NCBI GenBank assembly: GCA_034440575.1
Contig: JAOTOL010001213.1
Location: 320,380 to 384,379 of the forward strand
Source: Imbricaverruca yamaguchii
Taxonomy: Eukaryota; Arthropoda; Thecostraca; Neoverrucidae
Direction of reading: 5' to 3'
Length of the DNA: 64,000 nt
In this document: positions 175 through 56,273 of the stretch, piece by piece
How positions within the stretch are numbered: position 1 is the first letter of the stretch
How the letters are laid out: each line of letters begins with the position of its first letter
Translations under genes and position numbers: made by a program
The notes under the pieces: model-generated
Database searches by the model: none
The model's input: the letters and a program-made list of their open reading frames with translations, nothing else
What the model was told of the DNA's origin: nothing

Positions 175-240
175 CACGTGGTCTGGTTTCGACAGTATAA
201 AAGCCGACCTATTGCTATGCAGTTCAGGCAGCACCGTCAG
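175..240 (+). promoter_or_regulatory. Core promoter of the BRICHOS peptide gene
   Basis: A canonical TATA box (TATAAAAG) lies at 196-203, and an initiator-like TTCAGG places a plausible start site at about 226, roughly 30 bases downstream. An E-box (CACGTG) sits at 175-180 just upstream. The short leader from about 226 to the ATG at 284 has no upstream ATG. The spacing is that of a strong inducible animal RNA polymerase II promoter. The start site is inferred from motifs only. Confidence 0.6.
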
Positions 241-283: not shown

Positions 284-3118
284 ATGATCGGTGCTCTGGT
301 GCTCGTCACTGCGCTGAGTCAGCTCAGCGTGCACGCCGCCCAGCCAGAGGTGAGCCAACGTGCTGATATGGAGAAATATTCTGTACTCCATCTGTCCATC
401 TGTCCATCTGTCCATCTGTCCATCTGTCCATCTGTCCATCTGTCCATCTGTCCATCTGTCCATCTGTCCATCTGTCCATCTGTCCATCTGTCCATCTGTC
501 CATCTGTCCATCTGTCCATCTGTCCATCTGTCCATCTGTCCATCTGTCCATCTGTCCATCTGTCCATCTGTCCATCTGTCATCTGTCATCTGTCCTTCTG
601 TCCATCTCTCCATCTGTCCATCTGTCTATCTGTCCATCTGTCTGTCCATCTGTCCATCTGTCCATCTGTCCATCTGTCCATCTGTCCATCTGTCCATCTG
701 TCCATCTGTCCATCTGTCCATCTGTCCATCTGTCCATCTGTCCATCTGTCCATCTGTCCATCTGTCCATCTGTCCATCTGTCCATCTGTCCATCTGTCCA
801 TCTGTCCATCTGTCCATCTGTCCATCTGTCCATCTGTCCATCTGTCCATCTGTCCATCTGTCCATCTGTCCATCTGTCCATCTGTCCATCTGTTCATCTG
901 GCCATCTGTATATCCCTGCGAAAATATGGCGTAGAAAATGCATTGCATTGTATGCTGTGCAAGACGGCAAATTGACCTCTACCACCTCAGATGACCCCAC
1001 TTGGCCCGAGGCAGTGAGGGGTTTACATGGACAACGAGGTATGCACTATGTGTATTCATCCACAACTGATATTATATTCATCACTAATGCCCGGTATGCT
1101 TTTTAAAAAGACTTCCTAAAGATACTCCAAATCGATTTACTCCAGATGACCCGTCGCCTTCCCGGTGACCCCCAGTCAACAACAATACAAATCGATTAAA
1201 GTTATTGGGCTGTCGGATGCGTTTCAATCGTGCGCCGTGGAGCCACCGTCAGGTAAACGTCGGGGTGGTGTGGTCAGAGTTCGGCCAGCTCAGGTCTCTG
1301 ACCTGACCTCAAAGAAAACTCCGAGAAATGCGTTTTGGAGACACTTTCCAATTGCGCCCACGCAGATTGTTCCATCTCAATAACTTTTCAGGTGGCATGA
1401 TCTATCAATTTTCAAACATTGTTCAACGTGGTGCATTTTGACCTAAGCTAGGACGATGATCTTTCATAACCAGTGTTTGAAATTTTCACGTTAAACGCAA
1501 CAATGTTCACGGAACGGTTACCGCAAACTGTGCGGCGTTGCGAGACGCCGTTCTCCCACAGTCGCGGAGCAGATTAGGGGGACCCGAAAATACCCCCGAG
1601 ACGGGTCAGATTAAGATTCCGGCTTAGAGGAGACTATGTTTGTTACTGGAACGCTGTTGGCGAGACCGCAAAAGTAAACCGTGGTTTCTGCTCGGCGCAA
1701 CAAACTGCCAACGCTCATATTACGCTGCGTTTTTTCTTCGCATTATTGCCCGACGTGATAAGAAAACCTTTAGATTGTTATCTAGGGTCCATGCTGTATG
1801 GTTCCCAGGTGCATTAAAAGCGCGGAATAATTTGGGTGATGGGCAAATAGATATATTCTGCTGGTGTGTACCCTAACCTCGGTCCTGTTCAGATGAATAC
1901 TTTGTATTGATCCTTTTAAGGGGAAGTAGGTGCTGAATTCGGTCCCGTGAATTTCAAACCTGCCCCGTCCGATCGCTTTACTTGGTAACTTCGGTTCTTT
2001 CTTTAGAAAGGCGTACTCCGATACACAATGTGTGCCCCAGATCAATTGAGGTCAAGCCCCGAACACCGCTTGTTGCTTCCTATTTCTTCCCCTCGCTGAG
2101 CATAGTTCTCCTGTTGTGATCCAGGGCCTTGCGATAGGATTGTCTGCGACGATCCTATCGCAAGGCCCATAATCATGGCGGGATCACGCAGGGCCCGGGA
2201 TCACGAAGGGTTACTCTCAACGAATTGCACATAATCACAAGACGGATGGTAGTTCGGGTGTGTGATAAGTCTCAAAGATAGGTAGCGAAGAGGACCTTCT
2301 CGTACTTGTAAACACCAATATATACAACTGGGCTTAGTTTCTTGAGGAAGGACACAGCCCCTTAGAATTCAGCCCTGAACCCTGGGTCAGTCAGCCACTC
2401 CTCATAGTCTTCAAGTGTACTCAGGTTTCCAATAAGGTCACCCAGTCACTGCAAAAATTCGAGGCCTCGTGCTTTCCATGCAGTGTTATGCAGCATCGAG
2501 CACAACAGACCCAGCAGCTAGGGAAATCAACGTTACTGAAAAGGTCCTGCGCCCTGAGAATATACGGACTCCGCCCAATGGGAACATGAAAATCCGCAGC
2601 GCCAGCATGTGCTTTCGGTAAGTTTCCTAAGGGACATGTCTAAATGCCCGCAGGTGCTGACGACGATTGGAGATTCCAATGGCAACATCATCGGGGAGGA
2701 GGTAATCCTGGACAAGGACAACGAGGTCACCGTGCGGCGCAACTACCTGACCGAAACCATCCGGGACTACAAGACAGGGTTTGAGGCAATGCGGGGAAAG
2801 GGTCTCAAGGATGTTTGTGTCATCAAGGAAATAGCAAAGGGCAAATCGGCTCAGGATGCGGAGGAGGCCGACACCAACAAAGAAGCCGGTAAACTACAGA
2901 ACATCGAATGGAAAACTGCCCAAGCGGAACCGGCAGAAGACGACCTTGACAAGGCCGGCGCCAAGGTCAAAGGCTTTTGTGGTGAACTGCCTGCTTTCAA
3001 GCTGACTAGTGTTACCAGAGGTCGCAAAAGGGGATTTTGGGGTAAACTTTGGGGTGGAGTGAAAAGCGCACTAGTGGCCAACGCGGGCACAATTTTGATT
3101 GGGGCGGTTGGCCGCTAA
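284..3118 (+). CDS. BRICHOS-domain antimicrobial peptide precursor (two exons)
   Basis: Proposed secreted precursor of about 176 residues from two exons. Exon 1 (284-349) starts at an ATG in a good context (ACC before ATG) and encodes a 22-residue hydrophobic signal peptide (MIGALVLVTALSQLSVHA, cleavage likely near AHA/AAQ). It ends in phase 0 at the donor GTGAGC (350). Exon 2 (2654-3118) follows an acceptor CAG (2651-2653), also phase 0. It encodes a region with BRICHOS hallmarks: an Asp-containing stretch (TIRDYKTGFEAM), a first Cys in KDVCVIKEI, an acidic spacer and a second Cys in GFCGELPAFKL, about 80 residues later. A basic site RGRKR then precedes a short C-terminal peptide and the stop. 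The family role, from annelid precursors such as arenicin and nicomicin, is chaperoning and release of a membrane-active defence peptide. The polypyrimidine tract before the acceptor is weak, and a second donor-like GTAAGT lies at 2618, so a small extra exon is possible. Transcription is unproven. Confidence 0.72.
388..915 (+). repeat. (CCATCTGT)n microsatellite
   Basis: About 65 copies of the 8-mer CCATCTGT, nearly perfect, with a small disordered island (CATCTGTCATCTGTCC, CTTCTGT, CTCTCC, TCTATC) at about 575-650. An 8-bp unit without stops produces long spurious reading frames on both strands, rich in His-Leu-Ser-Ile-Cys-Pro-Ser-Val or Asp-Arg-Trp-Thr-Asp-Gly-Gln-Met. The array starts 38 bases inside the intron donor. 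Confidence 0.98.
2124..2168. repeat. Perfect 17-bp inverted repeat with 11-base loop
   Basis: The left arm 2124-2140 (GGGCCTTGCGATAGGAT) is exactly complementary to the right arm 2152-2168, around an 11-base loop. It lies in the intron of the peptide gene. A partial echo of the flanking words (GATCC...GGGCC, GATCACGCAGGGCCC) follows at about 2190-2210. It could be a foldback footprint or the tip of a small non-autonomous transposon. Confidence 0.9.
3032..3115 (+). other. Predicted mature peptide, 28 residues with C-terminal Gly-Arg
   Basis: After the basic site RGRKR, the C-terminus is a 28-residue segment starting GFWGKLWGGVK. Trp is at positions 3 and 7, Lys at 5 and 11, and there are no acidic residues and no cysteines. 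The second half is Ala/Val/Ile/Leu/Gly-rich. It ends Val-Gly-Arg before the stop. Carboxypeptidase trimming of Arg and amidation at Gly would give a 26-residue Val-amide; this is inference from neuropeptide-type processing. The GFW..xWxGxK start recalls the nicomicin-type BRICHOS peptides of annelids (from memory, not searched). It differs from beta-hairpin family members in lacking a disulfide, so an amphipathic helix is more likely. Confidence 0.65.
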
Positions 3119-6549: not shown

Positions 6550-8915
6550 GACTCAAAATTACCGTCAGTAGTGTGTGTGTGAGTTTTGCCAGCCTGCCAC
6601 CGCTTGGTGATATCGGCTGGTTCCAGTTGTGAGAAGATGTGTAAGACAGTGAGTAGCGTAGGGTAGGAGGATCAATCCGAGGTGGAGGTTTAGTAGAGTA
6701 GTCGAGCAGTGGTGAAGTAGCGATGAGATGGTCTTGAAGAGTGGAGCTGAGGTAGTCCGAATCGATTGAAGGTGTAGAGCTGGTGCAGTAGAGTTGTTTG
6801 AGAGCCGGAGATGATGAAGTCGAGAGAGAGAGAGTTAGTCCGGTCGGTGCCACATTGGGGTATTGGGTGTAGTGGGGGGGGGGGGTCGGATCATCGCCAG
6901 AAGTGAACATTGCAAGAACATGAATATATATTTTTCTCTTTTTCTGTTTTCTTTTGTAACGTGTCTTTTCTCTCTTTTTCCCATTTTCCTGGTTTTGTTC
7001 ATTTTCTCTTTCGTTTTTTTCACATATCTTTTCTCTTTTTTTATTTTTCCTTTTTTCACAATTCTTCCATAATGCGTGTAGTTTTGAGAAAGTGGAAGAG
7101 GTGTTCGTGTAATGCTGGATGGTCGTCGTTGAGGAGCGTGGTGAGGTTCAGTGGGATGTTGTTCGTGGTGCAATAGTTTGTGATATGTTGTCTTTGGTTG
7201 TTGTATTTGGTGCAGTATATGAGCAAGTGTTTGACTGTGAGTGTGTGGTGGCAGGTAGTGTATTGTGGTCGTGGTTGATTGAGTAGGAGGTATGAGTGTG
7301 TGAGTGCAGTGTGTCCTATGCGTAGTCGTGTTAGTGTCCGTTCTCTTAGTCTGGTGTTTTGGTTGATGGAGTGCCAGTGTTCGTGTTTGAAGTGTATTTC
7401 GTGTAGCTGTGTTGTTACTGTGTCCCATGTTTGTTGTATGTGTGTGTTGATGGCCTGTCGTATTGTGCGGTAGTAGTCGGATTGTGAATAGGGGCATTGT
7501 GTGGTTTGTTGGAGTGTTGTGGCTATGTTTGCTTCTGTGTCTGCGTGCTCGTTGCCGTGTATGTTTGTGTGACTTGGGATCCAGAGAAGTGTTGGCCGTT
7601 GTAGTATGGTGAGCTGTTTGTGGATGCGCAGTATTTTGGGTATGAGGGGGTGTTTGTATTTGGTGTGGGGTGCTATGCTCTGTAGTGCTGATTTTGCGTC
7701 TGTGGCTATGATGTCGTGTTCAATTTTGGGGTTGTAAATGGTGCAGTATGCCGAGAAGATTGCGAATAATTCTGCTGTGTATGTGGATGCTGTGTTGTGC
7801 AGACGGGCGCGTAGGATGACCCGCGGCGGCGCTGCGTTGGTGTACAGCACCGCCGCTGCGCCCGTCTGCTGTGTATGTGATTTGGAGCCGTCTGTATATA
7901 TGATGTTGTAGTTGGCGTGCTGTGCTGTGAATTGTAGGAATAGTTGTATTTCTGCGTGTGTGTATGTGCCTTTTGGCTTGTCAATGAGGAAGTGTGTGTT
8001 GGGTGTCGGCTGTTTCCACCATGCGATGGGTTGTGGGTGTGGTGTTGTCGTTGGGAGTGTTATGTCTAGTGTGTTAGCGTGTCGGTGTATGCGGCATCCT
8101 ATTGTGGTTCGTAGTCGTGTGGAGTTGATGAATTGGTGTCTGCGTGCTGTGCGGAGTTTTGGTGCCTGTGTGCATGGGTGTTGTTTCGTGAGTTGTGTTT
8201 TGTAGTGGTATCTAAGTAGTGCTTCTGTACGTCTGTGCTGTAATTCTGTGATGTGGTTGTATATGTGAAGAGAGTGAGAAGGTGAGGTGGTGAAGGCTAT
8301 TTGAAGAGATCGTCGTTGAATAGAATCTAGAATTTTGAGGTTTGATTTAGTTGCGTTTTCAAAGAGTGGGGATCCGTATTCCAGAATTGGCCGAATGAGT
8401 GATTTGTAAAGGGTCAGAAGTGTGTTTCGGTCGGATCCCCAGTGTGTGCCAGAAAGTGCTCGTAGTACGTTGATTCTTTTTGAGGCGCGTTTTTGTAAGT
8501 TTAGGAAGTGTGGCCGAAAAGTTAGTTGTTTGTCTAATGTGATACCGATAAATCTTGTTGTGGTGACAAAGGGAATGGGTGAATTGTTTATTTCTAGGGG
8601 TCGTAGGTTTGTGTCTCTGTTGTAGCCGAAAATCATACATTTGGATTTGAGTGGTGCTATATGGAGGTTTAGTGTGTCGAGTTTGTTGTTGAGTTCTGTT
8701 AGTGCGTGTTGTAATACTGTTAGTGCGTGTGCTGGTGCTTTTGTTGATGTCCGTAGTACTATATCGTCGGCGTAGATTGCAATTTTGGTCGAAAAGTTGT
8801 CGGAGACGGTGGAATTTAGGGCTAAAATGAAGACTGAGGACTGAGCCTTGCATTAAACTGGTGGTGGGGAATTTGGTGTCTGAGGTGTGGGGCCCAATTT
8901 TTACTTGAAAAGATC
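6550..8915 (-). mobile_element. 5'-truncated LINE with RNase H (I/Jockey-type)
   Basis: Minus-strand non-LTR element cut off at the 5' side near 8912. Reading leftwards it gives the end of the RT (FPTTSLMQGSVLS, then IYADDIV around 8770-8790), the thumb region, RNase H, a C-terminal His/Cys motif and a stop near 7056. A C/T-rich presumed 3' UTR extends to about 6550, including a G-run (on the plus strand) at about 6877-6888. ORF1 and the endonuclease are absent. Its junction at 8912 abuts the dispersed repeat at 8940-9020. Confidence 0.85.
7056..8905 (-). pseudogene. LINE reverse transcriptase C-terminal half plus RNase H
   Basis: The RT palm motif YADD is present, but one frameshift separates QGSVLS from the YADD frame, near 8830. 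From about 8800 to 7056 the frame is open. It includes the thumb (FIGITLDKQLTF, RPILEYGSPLF) and RNase H with YTDGSK, AELFAI, ATDAKSAL and WIPSHTNIHGNEHAD, so the D-E-D-D residues appear retained. It ends with a CHHT...H...C zinc-binding tail. The protein would replicate the element by target-primed reverse transcription. Truncation at the 5' side means it cannot act alone. Frame openness suggests a fairly recent copy. Confidence 0.85.
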
Positions 8916-25649: not shown

Positions 25650-27060
25650 ATTTCATGTGCACAGATAGCACATCATTCTGGACGTGCTTGGTGCACGCTG
25701 GCCTGTTACACTGGCAGCCTCACTCGTCGGCTGCATCTCGTGTGCACAGGTTGCACACCTCGCCTGCATTCCGGCTGTGCTTGGTACACGAGATGGCTTT
25801 TTGCACTCGCAGCAGCGCTGCTTCACTTTGTTCACGTTCTGATGTCGCGCCTTTTTGTATCCGGCTCCCTGCTGAACCACCACGCACACGTGACACCGCT
25901 GGCGCGTCTGCTCGGCGGACTCAGGTGCGGCTCGGCGGACTTGGGTGCGGCTCGGCGGACTCTGGTGCGGCTCGGCGGACTCTGGTGCGGCTCGGCGGAC
26001 TCTGGTGCGGCTCGGCGGACTCTGGTGCGTCGGCTGCTGATGGCGGCGTCCTCCTCTTCAGCACAATCTCCACTGCCGCCCTGGTTTGCAGACCATGCCG
26101 TCTCTCAGCCGGCTCTCGATGGCTGGCTTGATGAGCGACATGCCCAGCTCGCGCAGGAACGCTCTCCTTCCTCCGTGCTTCGTGTCTCCGAAGGGCCCGG
26201 GCTTGTCAGTTATGACCGCCCAGCTGTTCAGAGCGGCCACGTCCGGCATCATTAAAAACATGACCATGAGCCACCTCCACGTTGGTATCTTGCGCGAGTA
26301 GTGGCCGATAATCTGGTCGATGGTGTGGACACCGCCTTTTGTTTGGCCGTAGTAAACAATCATTTCGGGCTTTCTAGGTGGTGAGTAGGTGGTGAGGTGA
26401 GGTTGCTTTCCGACGTAGGTGAGGTTGCTTTCCAACAGGTCCTCACACAGGTCGACGCCGGTGTAGTATCGGTCGGCGGTGGCGTTCAGGCCACTATTTT
26501 TCAGGTCTCTCACCAGGTACTTCACAATGTTTGATGCGCCAGTCACATGAAGCGAATGGTCTGGTTCTTCAACCTTCCAGGGATACGGCAGCATTTCCAG
26601 CATGTACCGCGATGTCGCGTCAGCCACGTCCATGATGAGAAGTCAGTACTTTGCAGGTTTGTTCGGCGTTTGTATGACTAAGCTGCATCGTCCCCTGTAG
26701 CTGCGCAGCGTCTCATCTACGGCTACGCAGTCTGACGGATTGCAATACTTCGAGAGCAGAGCGTTGAATTATTCACACTTCACGAAGGCCGGCGAACTTG
26801 CCAGGCTTCCGCCTCTCTTCCCGATCTGAGCGGGCGTCGAAGCGGAGGATTCGCAACAGATGTTTCCAGCGGTTTTGGGTCGTGGTAGCCCCGTAGAATG
26901 GTCGTGAGAACGCTCCGTAATACAAGTCTTGCAGCTCACAATTGCGGTCAAACTCACACCGATGGAGCAGCATTAGGCCAATGAGAGCCATCAGCTCGTG
27001 CTGTCACTGGCACATGCGTCTTCCTTGTACTGATGGCGACTCTTTCTTCCTCTTCGTTGG
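25650..27060 (-). pseudogene. piggyBac-family transposase pseudogene
   Basis: Minus-strand DDE transposase of the piggyBac (DDE_Tnp_1_7) type. N-terminal signatures LMALIGLMLL and NRWKHLLRILRFDAR lie at 27000-26790. The first catalytic block VDETLRSYRGRC followed by PNKPAKY is at about 26725-26640. Next is LNATADRYYTG near 26480, holding the second Asp. KGGVHTIDQI at 26330 and RWLMVMFLMMPDVAALNSWAV follow. The canonical third catalytic Asp (GGVD) is His here (codon 26325-26327). Two in-frame stops, TAA at 26769-26771 and TGA at 26643-26645, break the frame. A Cys-rich C-terminal tail (RCCECKK, RCATC) lies at 25890-25655 in another frame, beyond a 20-bp tandem insertion. No terminal inverted repeats were found. 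A dead copy. Confidence 0.87.
25911..26030 (-). repeat. 20-bp tandem repeat inside the piggyBac relic
   Basis: About six units of GGCGGACTCTGGTGCGGCTC lie between the catalytic part and the Cys-rich tail of the transposase. Confidence 0.93.
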
Positions 27061-29377: not shown

Positions 29378-32300
29378 CCACCAGTCCCCTGCGACAAGGC
29401 AACCAGTCCCCACCAGTCCCCTGCGACAGGGCAACCAGTCCCCACCAGTCCCCTGCGACAGGGCAACCAGTCCCCACCAGTCCCCCTGCGACAGGGCAAC
29501 CAGTCCCCACCAGTCCCCTGCGACAGGGTAACCAGTCCCCACCAGTCCCCTGCGACAGGGCAACCAGTCCCCACCAGTCCCCTGCGACAGGGCAACCAGT
29601 CCCCACCAGTCCCCTGCGACAGGGCAACCAGTCCCCACCAGTCCCCCTGCGACAGGGCAACCAGTCCCCACCAGTCCCCTGCGACAGGGCAACCAGTCCC
29701 CACCAGTCCCCTGCGACAGGGCAACCAGTCCCCACCAGTCCCCTGCGACAGGGTAACCAGTCCCCACCAGTCCCCTGCGACAGGGTAACCAGTCCCCCCC
29801 CCCACCAGTCCCCTGCGACAGGGCACCAGTCCCCCTGCGACAGGGCAACCAGTCCCCACCAGTCCCCTGCGACAGGGCAACCAGTCCCCACCAGTCCCCT
29901 GCGACAGGGCAACCAGTCCCCACCAGTCCCCTGCGACAGCCCAGTCCCCTGCGACAGGGCAACCAGTCCCCACCAGTCCCCTGCGACAGGGCAACCAGTC
30001 CCCACCAGTCCCCTGCGACAGGGCAACCAGTCCCCACCAGTCCCCTGCGACAGGGCAACCAGTCCCCACCAGTCCCCTGCGACAGGGCAACCAGTCCCCA
30101 CCGGTCCCCTGCGACAGGGCAACCAGTCCCCACCAGTCCCCTGCGACAGGGCAACCCAGTCCCCACCAGTCCCCTGCGACAGGGCAACCAGTCCCCACCA
30201 GTCCCCTGCGACAGGGCAACCAGTCCCCACCAGTCCCCTGCGACAGGGCAACCAGTCCCCACCAGTCCCCTGCGACAGGGCAACCAGTCCCCCACCAGTC
30301 CCCTGCGACAGGGCAACCAGTCCCCACCAGTCCCCTGCGACAGGGCAACCAGTCCCCACCAGTCCCCTGCGACAGGGCGACAGGGCAACCAGTCCCCACC
30401 AGTCCCCAACCAGTCCCCACCAGTCCCCTGCGACAGGGCAACCAGTCCCCACCAGTCCCCTGCGACAGGGTAACCAGTCCCCACCAGTCCCCTGCGACAG
30501 GGCAACCAGTCCCCACCAGTCCCCTGCGACAGGGCAACCAGTCCCCACCAGTCCCCTGCGACAGGGTAACCAGTCCCCACCAGTCCCCTGCGACAGGGCA
30601 ACCAGTCCCCACCAGTCCCCTGCGACAGGGCAACCAGTCCCCACCAGTCCCCTGCGACAGGGCAACCAGTCCCCACCAGTCCCCTGCGACAGGGCAACCA
30701 GTCCCCACCAGTCCCCTGCGACAGGGCAACCAGTCCCCACCAGTCCCCTGCGACAGGGCAACCAGTCCCCACCAGTCCCCTGCGACAGGGTAACCAGTCC
30801 CCACCAGTCCCCTGCGACAGGGCAACCAGTCCCCACCAGTCCCCTGCGACAGGGTAACCAGTCCCCACCAGTCCCCTGCGACAGGGCAACCAGTCCCCAC
30901 CAGTCCCCTGCGACAGGGTAACCAGTCCCCACCAGTCCCCTGCGACAGGGCAACCAGTCCCCACCAGTCCCCTGCGACAGGGCAACCAGTCCCCACCAGT
31001 CCCCTGCGACAGGGCAACCAGTCCCCACCAGTCCCCTGCGACAGGGTAACCAGTCCCCACCAGTCCCCTGCGACAGGGCAACCAGTCCCCACCAGTCCCC
31101 TGCGACAGGGCAACCAGTCCCCACCAGTCCCCTGCGACAGGGCAACCAGTCCCCACCAGTCCCCTGCGACAGGGTAACCAGTCCCCACCAGTCCCCTGCG
31201 ACAGGGCAACCAGTCCCCACCAGTCCCCTGCGACAGGGCAACCAGTCCCCACCAGTCCCCTGCGACAGGGTAACCAGTCCCCCACCAGTCCCCTGCGACA
31301 GGGTAACCAGTCCCCACCAGTCCCCTGCGACAGGGTAACCAGTCCCCACCAGTCCCCCTGCGACAGGGTCAACCAGTCCCCACCAGTCCCCTGCGACAGG
31401 GCAACCAGTCCCCACCAGTCCCCTGCGACAGGCAACCAGTAACCAGTCCCCACCAGTCCCCTGCGACAGGGCAACCAGTCCCCACCAGTCCCCTGCGACA
31501 GGGTAACCAGTCCCCACCAGTCCCCTGCGACAGGGCAACCAGTCCCCACCAGTCCCCTGCGACAGGGCAACCAGTCCCCACCAGTCCCCTGCGACAGGGC
31601 AACCAGTCCCCACCAGTCCCCTGCGACAGGGCAACCAGTCCCCACCAGTCCCCTGCGACAGGGCAACCAGTCCCCACCAGTCCCCTGCGACAGGGCAACC
31701 AGTCCCCACCAGTCCCCTGCGACAGGGCAACCAGTCCCCACCAGTCCCCTGCGACAGGGCAACCAGTCCCCACCAGTCCCCTGCGACAGGGCAACCAGTC
31801 CCCACCAGTCCCCTGCGACAGGGCAACCAGTCCCCACCAGTCCCCTGCGACAGGGCAACCAGTCCCCACCAGTCCCCTGCGACAGGGCAACCAGTCCCCA
31901 CCAGTCCCCTGCGACAGGGCAACCAGTCCCCACCAGTCCCCTGCGACAGGGCAACCAGTCCCCACCAGTCCCCTGCGACAGGGCAACCAGTCCCCACCAG
32001 TCCCCTGCGACAGGGCAACCAGTCCCCACCAGTCCCCTGCGACAGGGCAACCAGTCCCCACCAGTCCCCTGCGACAGGGCAACCAGTCCCCACCAGTCCC
32101 CTGCGACAGGGCAACCAGTCCCCACCAGTCCCCTGCGACAGGGCAACCAGTCCCCACCAGTCCCCTGCGACAGGGCAACCAGTCCCCACCAGTCCCCTGC
32201 GACAGGGCAACCAGTCCCCACCAGTCCCCTGCGACAGGGCAACCAGTCCCCACCAGTCCCCTGCGACAGGGCAACCAGTCCCCACCAGTCCCCTGCGACA

Positions 32301-33104
32301 GGGCAACCAGTCCCCACCAGTCCCCTGCGACAGGGCAACCCAGTCCCCGACAGGGCAACCAGTCCCCACCAGTCCCCTGCGACAGGGCAACCAGTCCCCA
32401 CCAGTCCCCTGCGACAGGGCAACCAGTCCCCACCAGTCCCCTGCGACAGGGCAACCAGTCCCCACCAGTCCCCTGCGACAGGGCAACCAGTCCCCACCAG
32501 TCCCCTGCGACAGGGCAACCAGTCCCCACCAGTCCCCTGCGACAGGGCAACCAGTCCCCACCAGTCCCCTGCGACAGGGAACCGCCCCCTCCCCTCGACA
32601 GGGCAACCAGTCCCCACCAGTCCCCTGCGACAGGGCAACCAGTCCCCACCAGTCCCCTGCGACAGGGCAACCAGTCCCCACCAGTCCCCTGCGACAGGGC
32701 AACCAGTCCCCACCAGTCCCCTGCGACAGGGCAACCAGTCCCCACCAGTCCCCTGCGACAGGGCAACCAGTCCCCACCAGTCCCCTGCGACAGGGCAACC
32801 AGTCCCCACCAGTCCCCTGCGACAGGGTAACCAGTCCCCACCAGTCCCCACCAGTCCCCTGCGACAGGGTAACCAGTCCCCACCAGTCCCCTGCGACAGG
32901 GTAACCAGTCCCCACCAGTCCCCACCGGTCCCCTGCGACAGGGTAACCAGTCCCCACCAGTCCCCACCGGTCCCCTGCGACAGGGTAACCAGTCCCCACC
33001 AGTCCCCACCGGTCCCCTGCGACAGGGTAACCAGTCCCCACCAGTCCCCTGCGACAGGGTAACCAGTCCCCACCAGTCCCCACCGGTCCCCTGCGACAGG
33101 GCAA
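29378..33104 (+). repeat. 32-bp satellite, about 116 tandem copies
   Basis: A 3.7-kb array with unit CCACCAGTCCCCTGCGACAG plus GGCAACCAGTCC. Sites vary mainly at one position (GGCAACC or GGTAACC). Short truncated or duplicated units occur at about 29790-29830, 30380-30415, 31430-31445, 32340 and 32580. At the right end (32830-33080) an extra CCAGTCCCCACCGG makes a higher-order unit. Every unit holds CCCTG-CGA-CAGGG, a short inverted repeat. The array gives open frames over 4 kb on the minus strand; these are not genes. Confidence 0.98.
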
Positions 33105-42740: not shown

Positions 42741-43399
42741 GAACCCCCCGATGAGGCACCACCTCTACGCGGTGGGGGGATTGAGTGCCCCAATGACCCG
42801 GCGACCATCATACCGGCGAGGGGTGAGACCAGGAGTGCCTCACTCGTCCTTCCATCCACACGCTCCCATTCCAACACCAATATCATCCCAACCCATGTCC
42901 TTCACTTGGCGCCTGCCAACACCAACTATCCCAGCTATGAGCAGGCAGGGCTTCCCCGGTCCTGCCCACCAGCTCTGTTTTATCGGGGTAGCCGCGCCCC
43001 CTCGGCCCGTCCCCAGGGGTTGACGGAGTCCTGGAGGTTGAGGTCCCCCGTCGCACGGTGCTAGTTGTGACGGGGGACCAACACACCTCTCTGGTACTGA
43101 TATCCCGGAGGGGCGGGCGGGCCCGCGGGGCCTCACGCGGGCCAAGTGGCTGGTCGCCTCGGGCCGGGGGCCTGGGAATCTTCCCAGTGCCCGCCGGCCC
43201 GGCCGGCCGGGGTCAAGGGGTGGGCGGCGTTGGATCCTGGTCGGGGTGGTGAGTCTCTCTCTCCCGGCCGGACTAAGGCGCTTCCTGCCCCGTATAGATT
43301 CTCGGGCGCCTGGCGACCTCCCGTTCGCGGGACCCAGGCGTCCCCCCAGTAGGGCCCTATGCGGTGGGGCGCCCGGGGAGCTGAAACCAAACGCACTAC

Positions 43400-45110
43400 A
43401 TGGCATCAACAACCCAAAAAAACACCCCTGGTCCCTCTCGTGGGGGCCAGACCAGCCCCCATATACGACGTGATCGGAGCTCTCCATCGGATGGTACCCC
43501 CGTACCACGTGTGCTGATTTTCCGTGGAATTAGCAAGAGTCTTGCGTCCCTGTCCCGCTTCCAAAGGCGGGACGGATGTGACAGTTTCGGTAGGATTATA
43601 AGATGCGAAAGGCTGAAGGACGGTGCTCTGGAGGTAGAATTTGCGGCAGCAGAACAGGCAGACACAGCACTGCGATCATTTGAGTTTGTGTATGGCGTGC
43701 GTAAGAATGGGAAAAAGGAGGACGAGACGACCACAATCACCGTAGAACCACATAGTACAAAAAAAAACACCTCGCGTGGAGTAATTAACTGCTTTGACCT
43801 AAGAGATGTTACAGAGGATGAGATCGTAGATGGGCTGGCAACTTTCGGGGTTATAGCCGCCAGGAAAATGAAAGTAAGGAGAGGTACAGACTTTATTTTG
43901 TCCAACAATATTATTTTAACTTTCAACACAACCGACCTTCCCTCGGAGATCAGGGTGGGCTACCTGCGTGTGAGAGCGAGGCAATTCCTCCCAAATCCAA
44001 TGCGTTGTTTCAGATGCCAAAGATTCAGTCACACTAAACAGTCATCACCCAGCCAGTGGCCGCCCTGCGTGCAGCAGATGTGCCTCCCATGATCACATGG
44101 GTGAGCAGTGCTCCTCTGAGCACCCTTTTAGTACGAACTGCGATTCAGGACAGGTCCCCCACACGTCGTATGACCGTACATTTCCAAATTACATAAGGGA
44201 AAAGGAAATTATTGAATTGAAGCACACGCACAACATATCGTTTAGAGAGGCCAGGGACCTCTATGAAAGATCACACCCAAAAATATCGTATTCTTCCAGA
44301 ACCAAAACCAGCACAACCGCACCAAACGTACAGCCCGACAAGGCATGCGAGTTGATCGCACAACTTACAGCTCCTCTCCGAGCTTTTGGGGTGCCCCTCG
44401 CCTCGCCTACGATGAACAGACAGTATAGTGAAAAGAACGACAAAACAACTAAAGCCCCACCCACCACCAAAGAGTGTGCGGAAGATGTTTGCAGGCCTCT
44501 CAGCAGCCTACTCCTGACGGTGGGGAGTGGACCCAAGTCCACCGGTCCAGGAGGCCGGCGAGATCTTCCTCTTCCATCCCAGACTACCACATCTACCTAT
44601 ACCCCATCATCACCCAAATCCACGCCTACTCCTTCTCCCAAAGCCACCCCCGTTAACCCTATCACTTCGGCCATCTCAGGAGGGGGCAGTGCCGCCTCCC
44701 GTCGCGTCCCGGTACAGCCTCCTCCGACATCGCGGCGATCGCAGATGACCGGGGTTCGACCAGGAGCTCCCGATATGGGGGTATCGGGTCGAGTAAACCG
44801 TGACGGGTCGCGTGACCCCTCACTTAGCGAGCGTCCTCCCGGTCCGTCACAGGCCGAGGGCCTGCACGAATCCCTAGCCAGGACCTCTCGGGCACCCCCC
44901 CCCCTGACGGTTCCTGGAGATACGATGGGACCTCCACCCATTCCCCCTTGTGAGAACCTGCCACGCTCTTCCTCTATTGCCGGACGCAAAAGGGCATCAC
45001 CCTGGGCAATTTTGCCATCGAGCGGTGGTATCCCTAGGAATCTAGGAATCGCCAGCGAGCGAATTCTGCGTCCGCGGAGGCTAGGATCCACACTGGTGGA
45101 TCCTAATTAG
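43400..45110 (+). pseudogene. LINE J1 ORF1 (Gag-like, zinc knuckles)
   Basis: ORF1 begins with MASTTQKNTPGPSR and is followed by an RRM-like middle: VINCFDLRDVTEDEIVDGL, KMKVRRGTDFIL, LRVRARQFLPNPMRCFRCQR. A frameshift at about 44060-44095 falls inside the first CCHC knuckle (CFRCQRFSHTKQ). In the second frame come the remaining knuckle cysteines and YIREKEIIELKH, FREARDLYE. A Pro/Ser-rich tail extends to the stop at 45110. The protein coats element RNA. In the second knuckle several Cys positions are replaced compared with J2. Confidence 0.85.
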
Positions 45111-45217
45111 TCATTCACGTAATTTTGTTTTTATTGAACACTGATATTTGGATGTCCGGAGGCGGGGCAAGTTTGTATACATGGACACACACCACTTTTA
45201 AATTATAAGACACTTAT

Positions 45218-48200
45218 ATGACACCTACGTCAACAGTTTTACAGTGGAACTGTCGTGGTTTTAGAACTAGCGCCCAAGACTTCCAGGTGGTCTTAAATCG
45301 GTACGGCCCTGTGGCGGTATGTCTTCAGGAGACAAAACTTCCACCTAACTACATCGTGTCGTTGAGTGGGTACTCGATATTTCGGAAGGATGTGGTGACT
45401 GATGCTGCGGCACACGGTGGAGTGCTACTAGCAGTCCATAACAGCATCCCCATGAGAGTACTAACCCTGCATACTACACCCCAGGCGGTTGCCGCTCGAA
45501 TACTATTTGGTCACAGATGCATCTCAGTATGTTCCGTATACCCGCCTCCAGGGAATGTGTTCCTCACCGTGGAACTCGCCAACTTGGTGTCTGAACTGCC
45601 TCGACCCGTCTTGCTTTTGGGCGATTTTAACGCTCACCACACGTTGTGGGGATGTGACGGTATCAACACCCGTGGTTTATTTATATAACATTTTATTTAT
45701 AACATTTGGAATCTTTAATCCTTAAGGAATTGATCTGCATTTTAAATACTGGAACACGAACACACTTCTCCACACTGTCGGGAACCACTTCCATCTTGGA
45801 CCTCAGCCTGGCTAGCCCGCAGCTAACGGAGTGCCTCGAGTGGACGGTGGACTCCGATCCACTGGGGAGCGATCATTTCCCAATCTGGTTGAGTTATCTG
45901 GACGGATCAGTTTTAGGCCCGCGCCCGTAGCGATGGAATTTTAAGAAAGCGGACTGTGATAGATTTCAGGAGAAATTTCAAGCTGCTTTCCGCTCAGAAT
46001 CAAGGTCTCCACCACTGCCAGTGACCGAATTCACTGCACTTCTTCTGGAATGCGCCTCCTCAAGTATCCCCAGGACCTCCGGACTTCCTCGACGCACCCC
46101 TGTGCCGTGGTAGACGGAAGGGTGCAGTGCTCGAGGACGCGCGTTTCGAGCCTTCAACCGTAATAGCACAACTGCCAACTTAATAGAGTTCAGACGTGCT
46201 CGGGCCCTCGCTCGGCGCACTATGCGGGAGGCCAAGCGTGTTTCGTGGATTGAGTATGTTAGGTCACTCAATCGATCCTCGCCAACCTCATTAATTTGGT
46301 CTCGCATCAAGAGTATCTCTGGCCGATTTAATGCAGACTCGCTTCCCACATTGACCGTCGGTAGCCGTGAAGTGACGAACCCGATTGATGTGGCGAACGA
46401 GATTGGCCATGCTTTGGCAGACGTTAGCCGCGCCGGCAACGGCGACCCACAATTTATGCGCCACAAGGCGCGCTGTGCATCGATTTTGATTGATTTTTCT
46501 ACTTCAGAACATCAGTCATACAACGGTTGCTTTACTCTGGCTGAGATGGAATCGGCAATTCATTCGTTGCGCAATATAGCCGAAGGACCCGATGAAGTGC
46601 ACAATGACCTGCTGAAGCACCTGCCTTCCTCTGTGGTCGCGGAGCTTTTACGTACCTTGAGCCTGATATGGACTAATGGCGAGTACCCTCCATCGTGGTG
46701 CGAAACTACAGTTATCCCACAGTTGAAATCTTGGAAACGTGGCCAGGACCCCTTAGATTATCGTCCAATCTCTCTGACGTCTGCATTAGGTAAACTAATG
46801 GAGAAGCTCGTGAATGGACGCCTGTCCTGGTTCTTAGAAAAAATGACATCTTCGTAAACACGCAGTGTGGCTTTCGGAAGAACAGGAGTACCATTGACCA
46901 TATTGTATCTGCTGTATTGCTGTATATGCGTGCCACGGAACCTCACACTACCGGCCTCCACGCCCACCACCAAAACACCCCCGCGCCCCCGCCGACCGCG
47001 CCCACGGGTCGCCACAAAGGGCGGTACAGTCCCTAACATTCACCACACGTTACAGTCTCTGACACGGGGGGGCAATCACACCAAGCAGTGCACGCAGCCA
47101 ACGAGCACACATATTTTAACACTGGACACCGAAGTACGCATCGCTTTTAAGAGGAAGCGACATCTAGGCGTTTTTTTACATAGAAAAGGCTTACGACACC
47201 ACGTGGCGTAGAGGAATCCTGCTGAAGATCCACAAGCACGGAATTCGAGGACGACTTGGTACCTTTTTACAAAACTTCCTAGCAAATCGCTGTTTTCGTG
47301 TACGTGTCGGTAACTGCCTGTCGAATTGGTTTATTCAAGAGAACGGAGTCCCACAGGGAAGTGTCCTGAGTGTGACCCTCTTCGGGGTAATGATCAACGA
47401 TGTTGGGGACTCGCTTCCTGTGACCATTGGGCGCTCCTTATATGTTGATGCTTTCGCCATATGTTAATGTGCCTCACGTACACCGCCGATGGAGCGACAG
47501 CTACAGCTAGCCATCAGGTGCTTGGAGAAATGGGGAAACACGAATGGATTCCGCTTTTCTATAGTGAAAACCGTTGCCGTACACTTCTGTCGCCGCCATT
47601 TATGTTCCAATATGAAAATCCCACTGCACAGGCAGGTGATACCGGTGCAACCGGTAGTGAGATTTCTGGGGGTGGAATTTCATTCACCCTTGACATACCG
47701 ACAACATCTTAAAACGCTACGAGATAAGTGTGTAAATACTTTAAATATCTTCAAATGTGTGGCTCGTGCGACCTATGGAGCAGACCGCGCATCGCTGCTT
47801 CTGCTATACCGATCGCTTGTTCGGTCAAAGCTTCACTACGCGTGTTTTATTTATGACGGAGCTTGTTTGACGAATAAACGCATCTTGGATGCGGTCCACC
47901 ACTCTGCGCTTCGCATCATCACGGGTGCATTTCGTACTTCTCCAACGGCGAGTCTCCTTGCGGAAGTTCACGAGTTTCCACTCTCTCTGCCGCGTGAACA
48001 GCTTGGCATGCGATATGCTTGCAAGCTACGGCAATATCCGGACCACCCAGCTTACACCCATGTATTCTCCCACCGGATAGTAACGCTGTTCAGAAACGAA
48101 CACCCTACGAGAGCCGTGCCATACGGAGTGAGGATGAGACGACTTTTTTCTCAGAGCGATCTCCGGCTCCAGGGAGTTAGACTGATTGAGCCCTTTTCAA

Positions 48201-49159
48201 CGGCTCCCTGGGAACTGATCACACCGGAAGTTGACACATCCCTCGCATACACAAATAAATCCGATATTACACCACATGAATTCAGAGCACTCGCAATGGA
48301 GCACATTGAATGTTACACTGGATTTGTTGCAACATACATCGATGGATCCTGAACTGAGACCGGCGTTGTCAGCGCTTGTATTGCAGGTACTGTGGTGAGA
48401 AGCTTTTCCATTCCAGCACATGCTTCTGTGTATTCTTCCGAGCTGATTGCCATTCTGAAAGCTATCTGTTTCATCGAAGTATCAGATCATCTACTCCACA
48501 TTATTTTGACGGATTCTTTAAGTAGCCTTTTAGCGTTGAGGACACACAATCCGTCAAACCCCATTTTACGTGACATCTTAACTCGTCTCACCAGTGTGTA
48601 CCAGACAGGTAAAAGAGTGGTGCTATGTTGGATCTCTAGTCACGTGGGCATCCCAGGAAATGACCTTGCTGATGCTGCTGCAAAACGCGCGACGCAAGCT
48701 CCATGTTCACGAACTCTACCACTCCCTGCCCGTGACCACTTTCGAACCATTTCTGACTTTATGCTCACAAAGTGCCAAGGCTCGTGGAACGGAATACCGG
48801 ACAACAAGTTGAAGGCGATCAAGAATCTCCTCGGAAAATGGAGTTCGTGCTCGCGTAGGATCAGGCGAGATGAGGTGGCACAATGTCGCTTGAGAATTGG
48901 ACATACATATGCCACTCACTCTTACTTGCTAACTGGTGATGACGTGCCACGTTGCCCCAGATGTCACGCCCGCCTATCTGTGCGCCATGTCTTGCTGTCC
49001 TGTCCCGGCTACGAGGAGGAGCGTAAACGTCACTTTGGGCGTGCTCAGTCTTTGTCACTCAGCGAGGTTTTTGGCAACGACTCGGATATTGTTCGATCAG
49101 GGCGACTATTTGACTACCTCGCTGAAATATCATTTTCAGTAATATATGCACCAAGTTGA
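45218..49159 (+). pseudogene. LINE J1 ORF2: endonuclease, RT, RNase H
   Basis: APE-type endonuclease from 45218: LQWNCRGFR, QETKLP, YSIFRKD, LLLGDFNAHH; a stop follows at 45686, and SDPLGSDHFPIW is in a shifted frame. Stops TAG at 45928 and near 46111. RT from about 46220: EGPDEVHNDLLKHL, DYRPISLTSALGK. After the 205-bp insert come NGVPQGSVLS and then YVDAFAI at 47441, where YADD is expected, so the second Asp is Ala. RNase H at 48340-48720 has DGS, SSELIAI, TDSLSSLLAL and WISSHVGIPGNDLADAAAK. The C-terminal zinc tail PRCHARLSVRHVLLSCPG ends at 49159. Not functional. Confidence 0.87.
46905..47109 (+). mobile_element. 205-bp insertion in LINE J1 RT, 6-bp duplication
   Basis: Relative to J2, a 205-bp GC-rich segment splits the RT between IDHI and LTLDT. 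CATATT flanks it on both sides (46899-46904 and 47110-47115). Removing one duplicate restores collinearity with J2. The insert holds ACACCCCCGCGCCCCCGCCG and no reading frame. No terminal inverted repeats are obvious. Probably a small non-autonomous element. Confidence 0.7.
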
Positions 49160-49339
49160 AAATGTTGAATGTTGTTTTTTTTTCTTTTTTTTCTATTTTT
49201 AAAGATGTACGATTCGTTGTGTCGACTATTATTATGCAAGCTTAACTAGCTATGATGTGTGATATATCGACGTGTAAGTAAGCTGTGTTATGGGCGCTAC
49301 ATGACCAATGTAGTCGATGCGCCCTAAAGCCCTAATAAC

Positions 49340-50170
49340 TAATTCTCATGGTTTATCACATCGAATGCCTTGCTGAGGTCGAGGAGACACAGAAGAGATA
49401 CATCCCCACGGTCGTTGGCGGAAAGGACGCGGTCGGATTGGGACAGGAGTGCGATTTCGCAAGAGTGATTGGGACGGAAGCCGTGCTGGGTAGGGGAGAG
49501 GAGGCGATTGTAGGACAGGTAGCCGTAGAGCTGCTGGTGTACAGCACGCTCTACAATTTTAGCGATGGTGGGAACTATGGAAATTGGACGGAAAGAGGAA
49601 GCGAAGGATGAATCGCCTGATTTATAAACCGGAAAAACGAGGGAATGTTTCCAAGCGGGGGGAAGTCGCAGTTCGCAAGACAGGAATTGACCAGGTGAAG
49701 ATATACATCTCCTAACACGTCGAGGGTCAGACGCACGATCCGTATGCAAATCCCGTCTGCTCCTGCGGAGGCAGAGCACCGCATCCCCAGGACCAGTAAT
49801 TGAAAGTCCGCCAGTGAGAGGGGGAGGGGCTGAACGCGCAGACACCCACACGGGGTAGCAAGCATGGTAGGTTGGGGGAACTACCCTGCGCGGCCACCTC
49901 CGCTGCTACACGGGGACCTACCCCCACAAAGTAAGTGTTGAGGTCATCTGGGGACGCGGTAGGGATGACGCGTTTGTCGAAATTGTTTCGACCAACTGCG
50001 GTGTCTATGCTTTTAAATACCGACCGCGCGCCACCCTCCTCTATTCTCCTGCTATACTCCTCTCGATTATCACGGAGAATCTCGCGTTTCACCGCTTTAT
50101 TTAGGATGCTATAGCGGATTGAGCAATGTCCCACCTCTGTCGGGGCTTCCCTTCGCCGGGCCATAAGGGC
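49340..50170 (-). pseudogene. CR1/L2-like LINE RT fragment
   Basis: Minus-strand fragment. Reading from 50164: the linker after the endonuclease (AVKREILRDNREEYSRRIEEGGARSV, split here by frame), PDDLNTYFVGVGPRVAAEVA, then across frameshifts the ADGICIRIVRL block. The RT follows: WKHSLVFPVYKSGDSS, FRPISIVPTIAKIVER, LSPTQHGFRPNHSCE and LLDLSKAFDVINHE, which holds the first catalytic Asp. It stops exactly at the 3' end of LINE J1. A different clade from J1/J2; no RNase H seen. Confidence 0.8.
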
Positions 50171-50344
50171 TTTTGTAGTATCAGAGCTTGGGGGCGCTGG
50201 GGTTTCTGATTTTAACCGAGCACAAGGGGGCGTGGGAGTCGAGTACCGGCATAAATTTCCCTAAAAATTGGTCCCACTTTTCGGAAACAGTTGGTGACAA
50301 ATAGACCCCACTCCAATCGATGGACACCAAATCGTGATAAAATG
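50171..50344. other. Spacer, nothing recognised
   Basis: Sequence between two LINE fragments with no recognised feature. Confidence 0.4.
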
Positions 50345-51868
50345 ACTGGGTATCTTAGCTACAAGGAACACTTGAAAACACTTCGGGAGAAGCGCTTTCT
50401 ATCACTAAACCTACTGAAGGTTGTCTAGCGCACGTCCTACAGAGGCGACCATGGAGGACAGCTATGCTCCTGTTGTATCGTTCATCATACGTCCAAAACT
50501 ATATTACGCGTGTTTTATATACGACAGCGCATGTTCAACAAACAAACGACCACTAGATGTGATACACCATTCGGCACTACGAATTGTGACCAGCAGGTGA
50601 CTCATCAAATAATTTCCACAAACACCGCCTTGGCAGGTGACTCATCCAACTATAGACATGTCACTCTCCGCGGTGAAAAAGGCCCATGCAAGGGAACACG
50701 ATCGTCTGTCTCATGCTCTAGAGAACCTAGCCTCCTTTGACGAATACTTCCCGACATATATAAACGGGTCAAAAACTGATACTGGTGTTGGCAGTGCGTT
50801 TGTGATTGGTTCCACGTCGCGATCTTTCTCTCTACCACTTCATGCAACGGTATGCACATCGGAGTTGGTTGCCATCATCAAGGCGCTCAGTTTTATAGAA
50901 GTATGTCGTGATACATCGTATGTAATTTCTACTGATTCCCTCAGCAGTCTTGGGACGCTACTGTAGTTGAAACCATCTGACCCTAATGTACAGGATGTTC
51001 TGCGACGTCCCACATCACTGGCCCAAGCTGGAGAGGCTGTTACCCTCTGTTGAATTCCGAGCCACGACGGCGTTGTGGGTAATGAGACAGCTGATGCTAC
51101 CGCGAAGCGTGCCGCCCAAGCACCATGCCGGCGGGCTATGCCGCTCCCCGCGAGGGAACGTCACTGTTTAATCACAACTTTTGTTTGTGAAAAGTTGCAG
51201 AATAGCTGAAACAGTTTGCTGGACAACAAACTCCCGACCATCAAGCCATGTCTTCCAGAGTGGGCCTCGTCCTATTACAGGACGAGGCGAGACGAGGTCG
51301 TGCTCTGCCGCCTTCGGCTTGGGCACACTCATCCAACACTCCACCGTCTTCTCTGTGAAGAGAATAGGCCAAACTGCCCTCGATGTCACGCACCACTGTC
51401 TGTGCGCCACGTTTTGATTTCGTGCCCTCTGCTTGGCGATGACCGAGGACGGTTCTTTGCAGTCGCACAGTGGCCGTCCGCGAACTTCTTGGTGTCACTG
51501 CGTCGCGGAAACCTCTGGATAAATGTTTCGCTTTTTATCTGAAGTTTCCTTCAAAGCGATTTACACGCCTCACTGACGTGTAGCACTGTACGCTCGAACC
51601 CGTGACATGTCGCTCCAACTGATCGTCGCTTGCACTTGCTCTTGCTATTTCACCGTTTCACTGATGTTACTCCCGTTTCATTGTTTCACTGATGTTTGAT
51701 TGCACTTGCTCTTTCTCTTTCACCGTTCCACTGACATTTCCCCGTATTCTGAATGTTCGTGTACTACTGTTGGCACCAATCATCCTAAGCTGCCAATCTA
51801 ACACTGTTATGGTCGCTGTATGACCGAAGCAGCCGAAGCGCCCCTAAGCCCAAATGACCAACCAACCA
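50345..51868 (+). mobile_element. 5'-truncated LINE (family K/J type), RT end to 3' tail
   Basis: It begins in the RT thumb (YKEHLKTLREKRF near 50360) and continues with a broken RNase H: YINGSKTDTGVGSAFV, SELVAIIKALSF and STDSLSS, with stops at about 50963 and 51050. The zinc tail CPRCHAPLSVRHVLISCP follows, then a 3' UTR with repeated GTTTCACTGATGTTACTCCC. It ends with the hairpin GGTCGCTGTATGACCGAAGC and the tail ACCAACCAACCAAG. It abuts the Gypsy element on the right. Confidence 0.82.
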
Positions 51869-52056
51869 AGTAGGCTGCCAGGTCATCTGGTACGGGTGCC
51901 CTGCCGAGGCGAGGCATCACGGGGTCACGGGAGCAGAGGAGCTGCGACGTGGCAGCAGCCATTAACCCGCGCCGTCTTTCCGGTCAAATCCTCACACCCC
52001 TTCTCCGGGGGGGCAACTGGTGACGTCTGGAGACAATGTGATGAGAAAATATCTCG

Positions 52057-52620
52057 TTGCTTCACCAACTGTTTGAACAGCCTAGAAATGTCCTGTCTGA
52101 ACGCGTGAAGTTCCGTCGGTGCCGTCAGCGGGTTGGCGAATCGGTCGCCACGTTTTTGACCACCTTAAAGGAACAGAGCAAGTTCTGCGCATTTGGGGCC
52201 TTGGAAGATGACATGACACGGGACCAGTTTGTGGAGACATGCGTTTCGAGTCGTCTCCGTGATCGCCTCTGTGTGGAGGACCACCTAACTCTGCGTCGTC
52301 TAGAGTCCATGGCTCTGGCCGAGGACCGAGCGATGGACCGACAGCGGTTTTTGGAGGGAGGAGGCGGTGGGAGACGTCACGACCAAGCAGTGCCGTCAGC
52401 TGAGCCGGTGGAGGTGGCCTACGCGATGCGGAAGAATACACCGAGACCGGTAGGAAGAACGCCAAAAGGCAAATTTTGCTATGCCTGTGGACGACAAGGC
52501 CATATTTCGACAGATGAAGCGTGTCCAGCGAAAGGACAAGTGCAGGAAATATGGGACTTTGGGACATTTTGCTGTGAAATGCAAAAAGCAGGTCGGAGCA
52601 GTAAGCGCTGTTGAACCGGG
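52057..52620 (+). pseudogene. Gypsy G1 gag
   Basis: Retrotrans_gag-type capsid region: RVGESVATFLTTLKEQSKFC, TRDQFVETCVSSRLRDRL, LTLRRLESMALAEDRA. The first CCHC knuckle CYACGRQGHISTDEAC is intact. The second lies in a shifted frame (YGTLGHFAVKC near 52545-52575), with one of its Cys replaced by Tyr. Codons upstream of 52057 are probably part of gag in another frame. The protein would assemble the particle and bind RNA. Confidence 0.8.
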
Positions 52621-52682
52621 CACTGCATATTATTGCTATTGAGCAGAATGATTCTGCCTTGAAAATGAAGATTAAGATAGGA

Positions 52683-52737
52683 TGGGCGCTGTATGGCCGA
52701 AGCAGTCGATGCGCCCCTAAACCCAAATAACCAACCA
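52683..52737 (+). mobile_element. 55-bp LINE 3'-end stub with 15-bp target-site duplication
   Basis: The insert starts TGGGCGCTGTATGGCCGAAG and ends AACCAACCAA, that is, only the 3' hairpin and tail of a LINE. It is flanked by AAGATTAAGATAGGA at 52668-52682 and 52738-52752, identical 15-bp duplications. It splits the Gypsy frame just ahead of the protease domain. Confidence 0.93.
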
Positions 52738-52752
52738 AAGATTAAGATAGGA

Positions 52753-53208
52753 GGCTGTTGGGTGGATATGCTCCTGGACACCGGTGCAGCCGTGTCCATC
52801 ATTCCACAACGGATTTATGAGAATGTCATGCGTCACATTCCTCTGAAGTCCACTACAGCCAGCCTGCAGGCGTACGGAGGCGGTCAGCTGATGGTGGCTG
52901 GAGTCATCTCGGCAATGGTGGAGACAGAGGACGGGCGAGGCTGTCAGGGCTGCCTGTACGTGGTGGACGGCGGTACGCCGCTCCTCGGCAGGGACCTGCA
53001 GAGAAGACTGCGTATCTCCGTCAAGCACGGGTCAGCTGTGTGCGCCGTGAATCAGCCAGTGACCAGCGCAGAGGTCACGTCAGAGGGTGAGGGCGAGAGT
53101 ACCCTGCCACCCAGCAAGGGCTTCGTACACAGAGTCCAGCTTCGTGAAGACGCCGTTCCGGTGCAGCAGAAGCTGCGACCAGTGCCATTTGCCCTTCGAG
53201 AGGAGTAG
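52753..53208 (+). pseudogene. Gypsy G1 protease and start of RT
   Basis: Retropepsin-like aspartic protease with the active-site DTGA at 52777-52788, followed by VSIIPQRIYENV and a distal LLGRDLQRR. It runs into the RT N-terminus (GFVHRVQLREDAVPVQQKLR) before an in-frame TAG at 53206-53208. The protease would mature the gag-pol polyprotein. Confidence 0.82.
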
Positions 53209-54270: not shown

Positions 54271-54271
54271 G

Positions 54272-55873: not shown

Positions 55874-56273
55874 TGGCCCGTCCCCCGGGGTTCACGGAGT
55901 CCTGGAGGTTGAGGTCCCCGTCGCACGGTGCTAGTTGTGACGGGGGGACCAACACGCCTCTTTGGTCCCGATATCCCGGAGGGGCGGGCGGGTCCCTATG
56001 GCCCCATACGGACCAAGTGGCTTGTCGCCTCGGGTCGGGGCCTGGGTTTCGTCCCAGTGCCTGATGGCCCGGCCGGCAGGGGTCAAGGGGTGGGCGGTGC
56101 TGGATCCCGGTCGGGGTGGTGAGTATCTCTCTCCCGGCCGGGCGAAGGCGCCGCCTGCCCCGTATAGCTCCTCGGGCGCCTGGCGACCTCCCCGTCCGCG
56201 GGATCTAGGCGTCCCCCCAGTAGGGCCCCCATGGGGTGGGGCGCTACGAGGAGCCGACACGTACAAACAGTAT

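Follow-up and report, generated by a model that had tools for sequence, protein, structure and literature searches.

Precursors of BRICHOS antimicrobial peptides (BRICHOS-AMPs) are defined by a hydrophobic signal or membrane stretch, a linker with a BRICHOS domain, a basic cleavage site and a C-terminal cationic peptide (PMC6780910, PMC10745061). According to a 2019 review, the family is seemingly restricted to marine worms (PMC6780910). Judging from such accounts, BRICHOS-AMPs have mostly been published as transcripts; the genome described here shows the genes themselves. We analysed a 64-kb stretch of DNA, called the window, comprising bases 320380-384379 of contig C980 (JAOTOL010001213.1), and searched the genome to which it belongs (767 Mb in 1430 contigs). 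A first-pass annotation had proposed a candidate BRICHOS-AMP gene in the window, with the architecture of arenicin/nicomicin-type precursors. Our analysis supports and extends this proposal. The parts occur in the same order, the PDB offers a single match to the peptide, nicomicin-1, and the gene is one of a family with several copies in its own genome. We conclude that the locus is very probably a functional two-exon gene of the animal innate-immune BRICHOS-AMP family, working by the mechanism proposed below. The sequence features behind this view are the gene structure, the domain match, the hallmark residues, the family and the pattern of selection. The order of parts is already known from BRICHOS-AMPs, and the window peptide is a new variant of them.

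Like the nicomicin-1 and nicomicin-2 precursors of Nicomache minor (PDB 6hn9), as described by their authors, the window gene encodes a signal peptide, an acidic BRICHOS propiece and a basic cut (PMC6265681). The C-terminal peptides also share their start, GFW...W.G.K, and an N.GT step (PMC6265681). The nicomicin precursor is longer (239 aa, against 176 aa; PMC6265681). Moreover, the nicomicin tail is a six-residue disulfide loop, whereas the window peptide is free of Cys and carries an amidation signal. In Heteromastus filiformis, HfBRI-28 and other HfBRI precursors are reported to place a Cys-free helical peptide behind BRICHOS, and a single species has peptides of many classes (PMC10745061). 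The likeness drawn here is one of published description, and the HfBRI-28 precursor is a membrane protein whose peptide has a charge of +7 (PMC10745061). Alvinellacin, arenicin and capitellacin, as published, also combine signal peptide, BRICHOS, basic cut and AMP, but their peptides are beta-hairpins. The alvinellacin gene is described with five introns and the AMP in the last exon (PMC5431198), whereas the window gene has one intron and encodes BRICHOS and AMP in one exon. In Alvinella, the AMP is reported as frozen while BRICHOS changes (PMC5431198). The window family shows the reverse, with the peptide changing faster.

The window peptide also resembles the scorpion venom peptides Um3 and UyCT1 (Urodacus), which in the published descriptions have 14 residues when mature, against 26 here. 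Note that short helical scorpion AMPs of the UyCT/IsCT type have a different precursor order, reported as signal, mature peptide, GKR or GRR, and acidic propeptide (PMC4447460). The window gene does not follow that order: its acidic domain comes first and its GR stands at the protein end.

Organisation of the gene

The coding sequence is split in phase 0 between two exons, 284-349 and 2654-3118, and specifies a 176-aa precursor. This starts with a hydrophobic signal peptide and continues with a BRICHOS-like propiece of net acidic charge, the basic site RGRKR, the Trp-rich peptide GFWGKLWGGVKSALVANAGTILIGAV, GR and a stop. Hence, the gene has the layout of a BRICHOS-AMP precursor, with the BRICHOS part recognised by a sub-threshold profile match and the hallmark residues. 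The features are as follows (D38, C55 and C109 in exon-2 numbering).

196..201, + strand: TATA box (TATAAA), 88 bases upstream of the ATG
284..349, + strand: exon 1, 22 aa, ATG at 284, signal peptide MIGALVLVTALSQLSVHA(A)QPE; homologous exon in 5/5 open paralogues
350..2653, + strand: intron, phase 0, 2304 bases, GT..AG; donor GAG/GTGAGC after 349, acceptor CCCGCAG before 2654
387..909, + strand: minisatellite of TCCATCTG, 66 copies, within the intron
2654..3118, + strand: exon 2, with propiece, cleavage site, mature peptide and stop codon (3116-3118)
2753..2998, + strand: BRICHOS domain by profile match, exon-2 residues 34-115, Pfam profile positions 6-90 of 91
2765..2767, + strand: hallmark Asp D38; masking -5.5 bits; invariant in 10/10 aligned rows
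2816..2818, + strand: first hallmark Cys C55; masking -8.0 bits; invariant in 10/10 aligned rows
2978..2980, + strand: second hallmark Cys C109; masking -8.5 bits; invariant in 10/10 aligned rows
3017..3031, + strand: basic processing site RGRKR
3032..3109, + strand: predicted mature 26-residue peptide GFWGKLWGGVKSALVANAGTILIGAV
3110..3115, + strand: Gly-Arg, predicted C-terminal amidation signal; GR also ends L004, L006 and L007, not L003 and L005
3448..3453, + strand: AATAAA, likely polyadenylation signal judged by sequence, starting 330 bases past the stop

The signal cleavage point in exon 1 was placed by eye. The intron also contains an inverted repeat at 2124-2168 (45 bases, 89% self-complementary). 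On re-reading of the sequence, the exon coordinates and phase-0 junction of the first-pass annotation were all exact. The basic cleavage site and short Trp-rich C-terminal peptide that it described are likewise in place, as RGRKR (3017-3031), the 26-mer (3032-3109) and then GR. Its signal-peptide exon upstream of exon 2 has a matching signal exon in all five open paralogues.

Short open stretches that could pass for exon 1 also arise by chance. Across the two strands of the 64-kb window there are 33 stretches from an ATG to a phase-0 donor (18-40 codons, donor at least 7/9). Three of these have a hydrophobic core of at least 1.9, exon 1 among them. What decisively shows that the split gene is more than chance is its repetition in the same genome.

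Assignment of the propiece to BRICHOS

According to published descriptions, two Cys and one Asp are the hallmark residues of BRICHOS (PMC6265681, PMC9627735). The first-pass annotation had noticed a BRICHOS-like Cys pair with an Asp block and expected a Pfam match at permissive thresholds. Such a match was found. With PF04089, E was 5.7e-4 when the whole protein was used, 4.4e-4 with exon 2 and 2.4e-4 with the propiece. The match covers 85 of the 91 profile positions, with scores of 20.5-21.7 bits that lie below the curated cut-off of 25. Masking with X lowered the propiece score, 21.7 bits when unmasked, to 13.2 for C109, 13.7 for C55 and 16.2 for D38. Masks at Y39 and P113 left 18.0 and 18.7 bits. 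Control masks at two other Asp residues, D53 (20.9) and D96 (21.6), cost just 0.1-0.8 bits. Hence, the match rests most on C55, C109 and D38, the very residues noticed at first. In a ten-row alignment of the six window-family members with four of the nine loci of the second family described below, 21 columns are invariant, all three residues included.

The precursor family could be real, secreted and two-exon, with a prodomain that is some other small Cys-pair domain and scores as BRICHOS by chance. Consistent with this, the Pfam score is sub-threshold, the same exon also draws unrelated families (at 0.006 and 0.06), and only the window member, 1 of 10 family members, reached Pfam BRICHOS at E up to 10. 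We nonetheless consider a chance score quite unlikely. None of seven controls (one reversed and six shuffled sequences) matched BRICHOS, the score depends most on three hallmark residues, the match spans nearly the full profile, and the order of parts equals that of published BRICHOS-AMPs.

A PF04089 search of the gene's own genome found no match, and was uninformative since 14 controls were equally silent. Similarly, PF16915 (annelid linker) had no match, while no control matched either. AlphaFold, run with the single sequence of exon 2 alone, gave a pLDDT of 39, too low for the model to be used. In the PDB, the propiece had no match, and the whole protein matched ribosomal L1 and an Rhs-family protein (E 0.75-1.2), both rejected. 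Annexins were the sole PDB matches of the family profile (best E 0.0064), with no BRICHOS structure; they were rejected as short similarity. Among 108 word-sharing candidates from 5.8 billion predicted proteins, no homologue was found at E up to 10, and neither of two pattern matches in IMG/VR is a relative.

Related genes in the same genome

A six-frame genome search with exon 2 returned 19 matches. Note that this search scores the best candidates only, so copy counts are lower bounds. Besides the window gene there are at least five open copies, L003-L007, which are 56-62% identical. Each has a signal exon with a phase-0 donor upstream, found directly for L004, L006 and L007, and via L021 and L022 for L003 and L005. 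Introns of 1341 (L004), 658 (L006) and 647 (L007) bases were read. A TATA box lies at -87 to -89 in five of six genes (window, L004, L006, L021 and L022; L007 is without), and the acceptor AG and first exon-2 codons (Val-Leu) are alike in all six.

The peptides behind these propieces differ. The residues before the peptide are KR in L004, L006 and L007, whose predicted peptides are GWRRFLRTVKAIVKNRGTIIKVIRWF, GWPRFRHRAHTVIRNNAGTILRAAILSW and GWKRFRNIVKKVIRKNAGTIIKHFFSAW respectively, each followed by GR. In L003 and L005, RR precedes predicted peptides of the form WxKxAKFIRNNSGTVVKRC..., with six and four Cys respectively and no GR end. The flanks of L006 and L007, and of L003 and L005, are collinear at 89-96%. 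Hence, each of these pairs may be two alleles. On contig C407, at 50145-50774, L008, L009 and L018 are three pieces of one broken copy with in-frame stops; a second partial copy of the 3' half lies alongside. A further match, L020 (E 0.5), is due to chance.

A second, BRICHOS-like family comprises at least nine loci (L010-L017 and L019), 28-30% identical to the window exon 2 in the genome search; the four loci in the ten-row alignment are at 27-28%. They lie on contigs C677, C404 and C960, are closely alike, and have spacings of 12-17 kb between copies on the same contig. Their products end with GRAKR and then QQQCSCVNICTQSGCSCVF in eight of the nine loci (L017 has I for the first S). The six-Cys peptide behind GRAKR is QQQCSCVNICTQSGCSCVFKC in most copies. 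A signal exon was found for five of nine loci, with an intron that we read as phase 1. Counting possible alleles once, there may be four independent peptide types, with that of the second family in addition.

Together these genes form a natural series with one chaperone and about five peptide types: a Trp-rich peptide with an uncharged tail, two strongly cationic Cys-free kinds, one with a Cys-rich tail and one with six Cys. Hence, the series can be used to test whether the chaperone limits its peptide cargo.

The peptide changes faster than the propiece

Among the six open members, propiece dN/dS was 0.35-0.65 in all 15 pairs. The ratio was computable for the peptide region in all pairs but one (14 of 15). 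Twelve gave values below 1 (0.35-0.71) and two gave values above 1, namely L004-L006 (1.89) and L006-L007 (6.32). The peptide region begins at the first peptide column of the window gene, in a gapped alignment that is uncertain. Because the start was set by that column, the region in paralogues includes one cut-site residue and the GR end.

Amino-acid changes are concentrated in the peptide region, with 14/31 against 5/124 in the propiece for L006-L007 (Fisher 6e-8), 16/28 against 10/125 for L004-L006 (Fisher 3e-8), 11/28 against 13/124 for L004-L007 (Fisher 6e-4) and 11/33 against 6/127 for L003-L005 (Fisher 3e-5). In these four closest pairs, two of which are possibly alleles, the propiece is 90-96% identical and the peptide region differs at 33-57%. 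Nonsynonymous-to-synonymous tables for the same pairs, in the same order, gave p values of 0.065, 0.080, 0.75 and 0.69, which are not significant. Hence, the data show faster change of the peptide, and not positive selection.

These figures also speak to whether the window gene is a decayed or untranscribed copy. It adjoins transposon-rich sequence and has a broken sister copy on C407. However, its frame is open, the TATA box, splice sites, and cleavage and amidation signals are present, and the propiece dN/dS is in the above range against all five open paralogues. We consider decay or silence very unlikely.

Likeness of the peptide to nicomicin-1 and scorpion venom peptides

Among 177635 PDB sequences, nicomicin-1 was the only match to the 28-residue C-terminus at E up to 10 (E 0.67), and the alignment starts at the first residue of both. 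The two peptides share six of their first 14 residues, the local alignment also pairs N.GT..I, and only 1 of 20000 shuffles scored as high. The paralogue peptides fared differently, with 51 to 1104 of 5000 shuffles as similar to nicomicin-1 across the five, and 2531 of 5000 for the second-family peptide. A profile of the six mature peptides of the family did not find nicomicin in the PDB at E up to 10. Hence, we do not claim nicomicin-wide homology. Allophycocyanin and a disintegrin, which that profile did match, were not taken as relatives.

The venom likeness is closer. According to the published sequences (PMC5308254), residues 1-14 are identical to Um3 of Urodacus manicatus at 12 of 14 positions, and to UyCT1 at 11 of 14. 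No shuffle among 200000 equalled the Um3 likeness; the best reached 8/14. Um3 and UyCT1 were tested in amidated form, and Um3 is reported as active on most bacteria tested (PMC5308254). The nicomicin authors had already remarked that nicomicin resembles UyCT1 and StCT1 (PMC6265681). The first-pass annotation did not recognise the peptide. Given Um3, the first 14 residues are not wholly unfamiliar. As to the full 26-mer, among the matches listed for BRICHOS-AMPs, nicomicin, annelid or polychaete precursors and scorpion peptides or UyCT1, no title or abstract opening describes it. BRICHOS, scorpion and UyCT1 occurred together in the nicomicin paper alone, among the matches listed.

Because the sister genes have quite different peptides, convergence would be the simplest reading of the Um3-like residues. 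If so, the near-identity would illustrate cleanly how immunity and venom can arrive at the same membrane-lytic sequence. More fully, the chaperone may be held while the warhead is free, with one member having independently arrived, behind an unrelated prodomain, at a 14-residue lytic helix nearly identical to that of scorpion venom. We regard this fuller scenario as evenly poised.

The window peptide has two basic side chains only. Its side-chain charge is +2, against +8 for L004, +5 for L006, +8 for L007, +5 for L003 and +6 for L005. The tail, residues 12-26, has a GRAVY of 1.76. The helical moment is 0.08 for all 26 residues, so that one ideal helix would be hardly amphipathic, and 0.35 for residues 1-14. 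With its low charge and hydrophobic tail, the peptide might be a regulatory or aggregation-prone client of a real BRICHOS precursor rather than an antimicrobial; many BRICHOS proteins are described as having other clients (PMC9627735). The basic cut and amidation signals, the higher charge of all five paralogues, the nearly complete match of residues 1-14 to a venom peptide that acts on bacteria and the faster change of the peptide all argue otherwise, and we consider a non-antimicrobial role unlikely.

Proposed route from precursor to membrane damage

From the precursor anatomy and published relatives, we infer secretion, disulfide formation, cleavage, amidation, chaperoning and antibacterial action of the BRICHOS-AMP, as follows. 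The signal peptide would direct the precursor into the secretory pathway, where a C55-C109 disulfide would close the BRICHOS domain. This domain would serve as a built-in chaperone for a hydrophobic peptide prone to aggregation, which would thereby stay in solution and do no harm to the cell that makes it. Cleavage after RKR would then fall to a convertase. Carboxypeptidase and PAM are the trimming enzymes for GR-type ends. Their removal of GR would yield a cationic, C-terminally amidated 26-mer. The Trp-rich residues 1-14 may form a membrane-lytic helix, with the uncharged tail inserting or oligomerising, and the end effect would be membrane damage in bacteria. Nicomicin-1 (PMC6265681) and HfBRI-28 (PMC10745061) are both reported to act via membrane damage.

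Surroundings of the gene

A tblastn search found no second gene copy within the 64-kb window, where Rfam and tRNA scans likewise gave no hits. A loose BRICHOS-like pattern occurs there in five open frames: three are tandem repeat, one is retroelement and one is the gene itself. At 29378-33081 lies a 3.7-kb minisatellite with a 32-base unit in about 115 copies; open frames on both of its strands look like repeat artefacts. Non-LTR retroelement stretches (RT, endonuclease, RNase H) occupy 7056-8852, 43385-51542 and 56224-61788. Searches with two retroelement proteins of the window gave matches of which 3 of 23 and 0 of 38 respectively name an organism; all three are arthropods (34, 26 and 32% identity), which we take as no evidence of phylum. 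Other mobile sequences are a piggyBac-type transposase fragment at 26058-26642 (PF13843) and a Gypsy-like integrase region at 52045-55912 (PF17921, PF00665).
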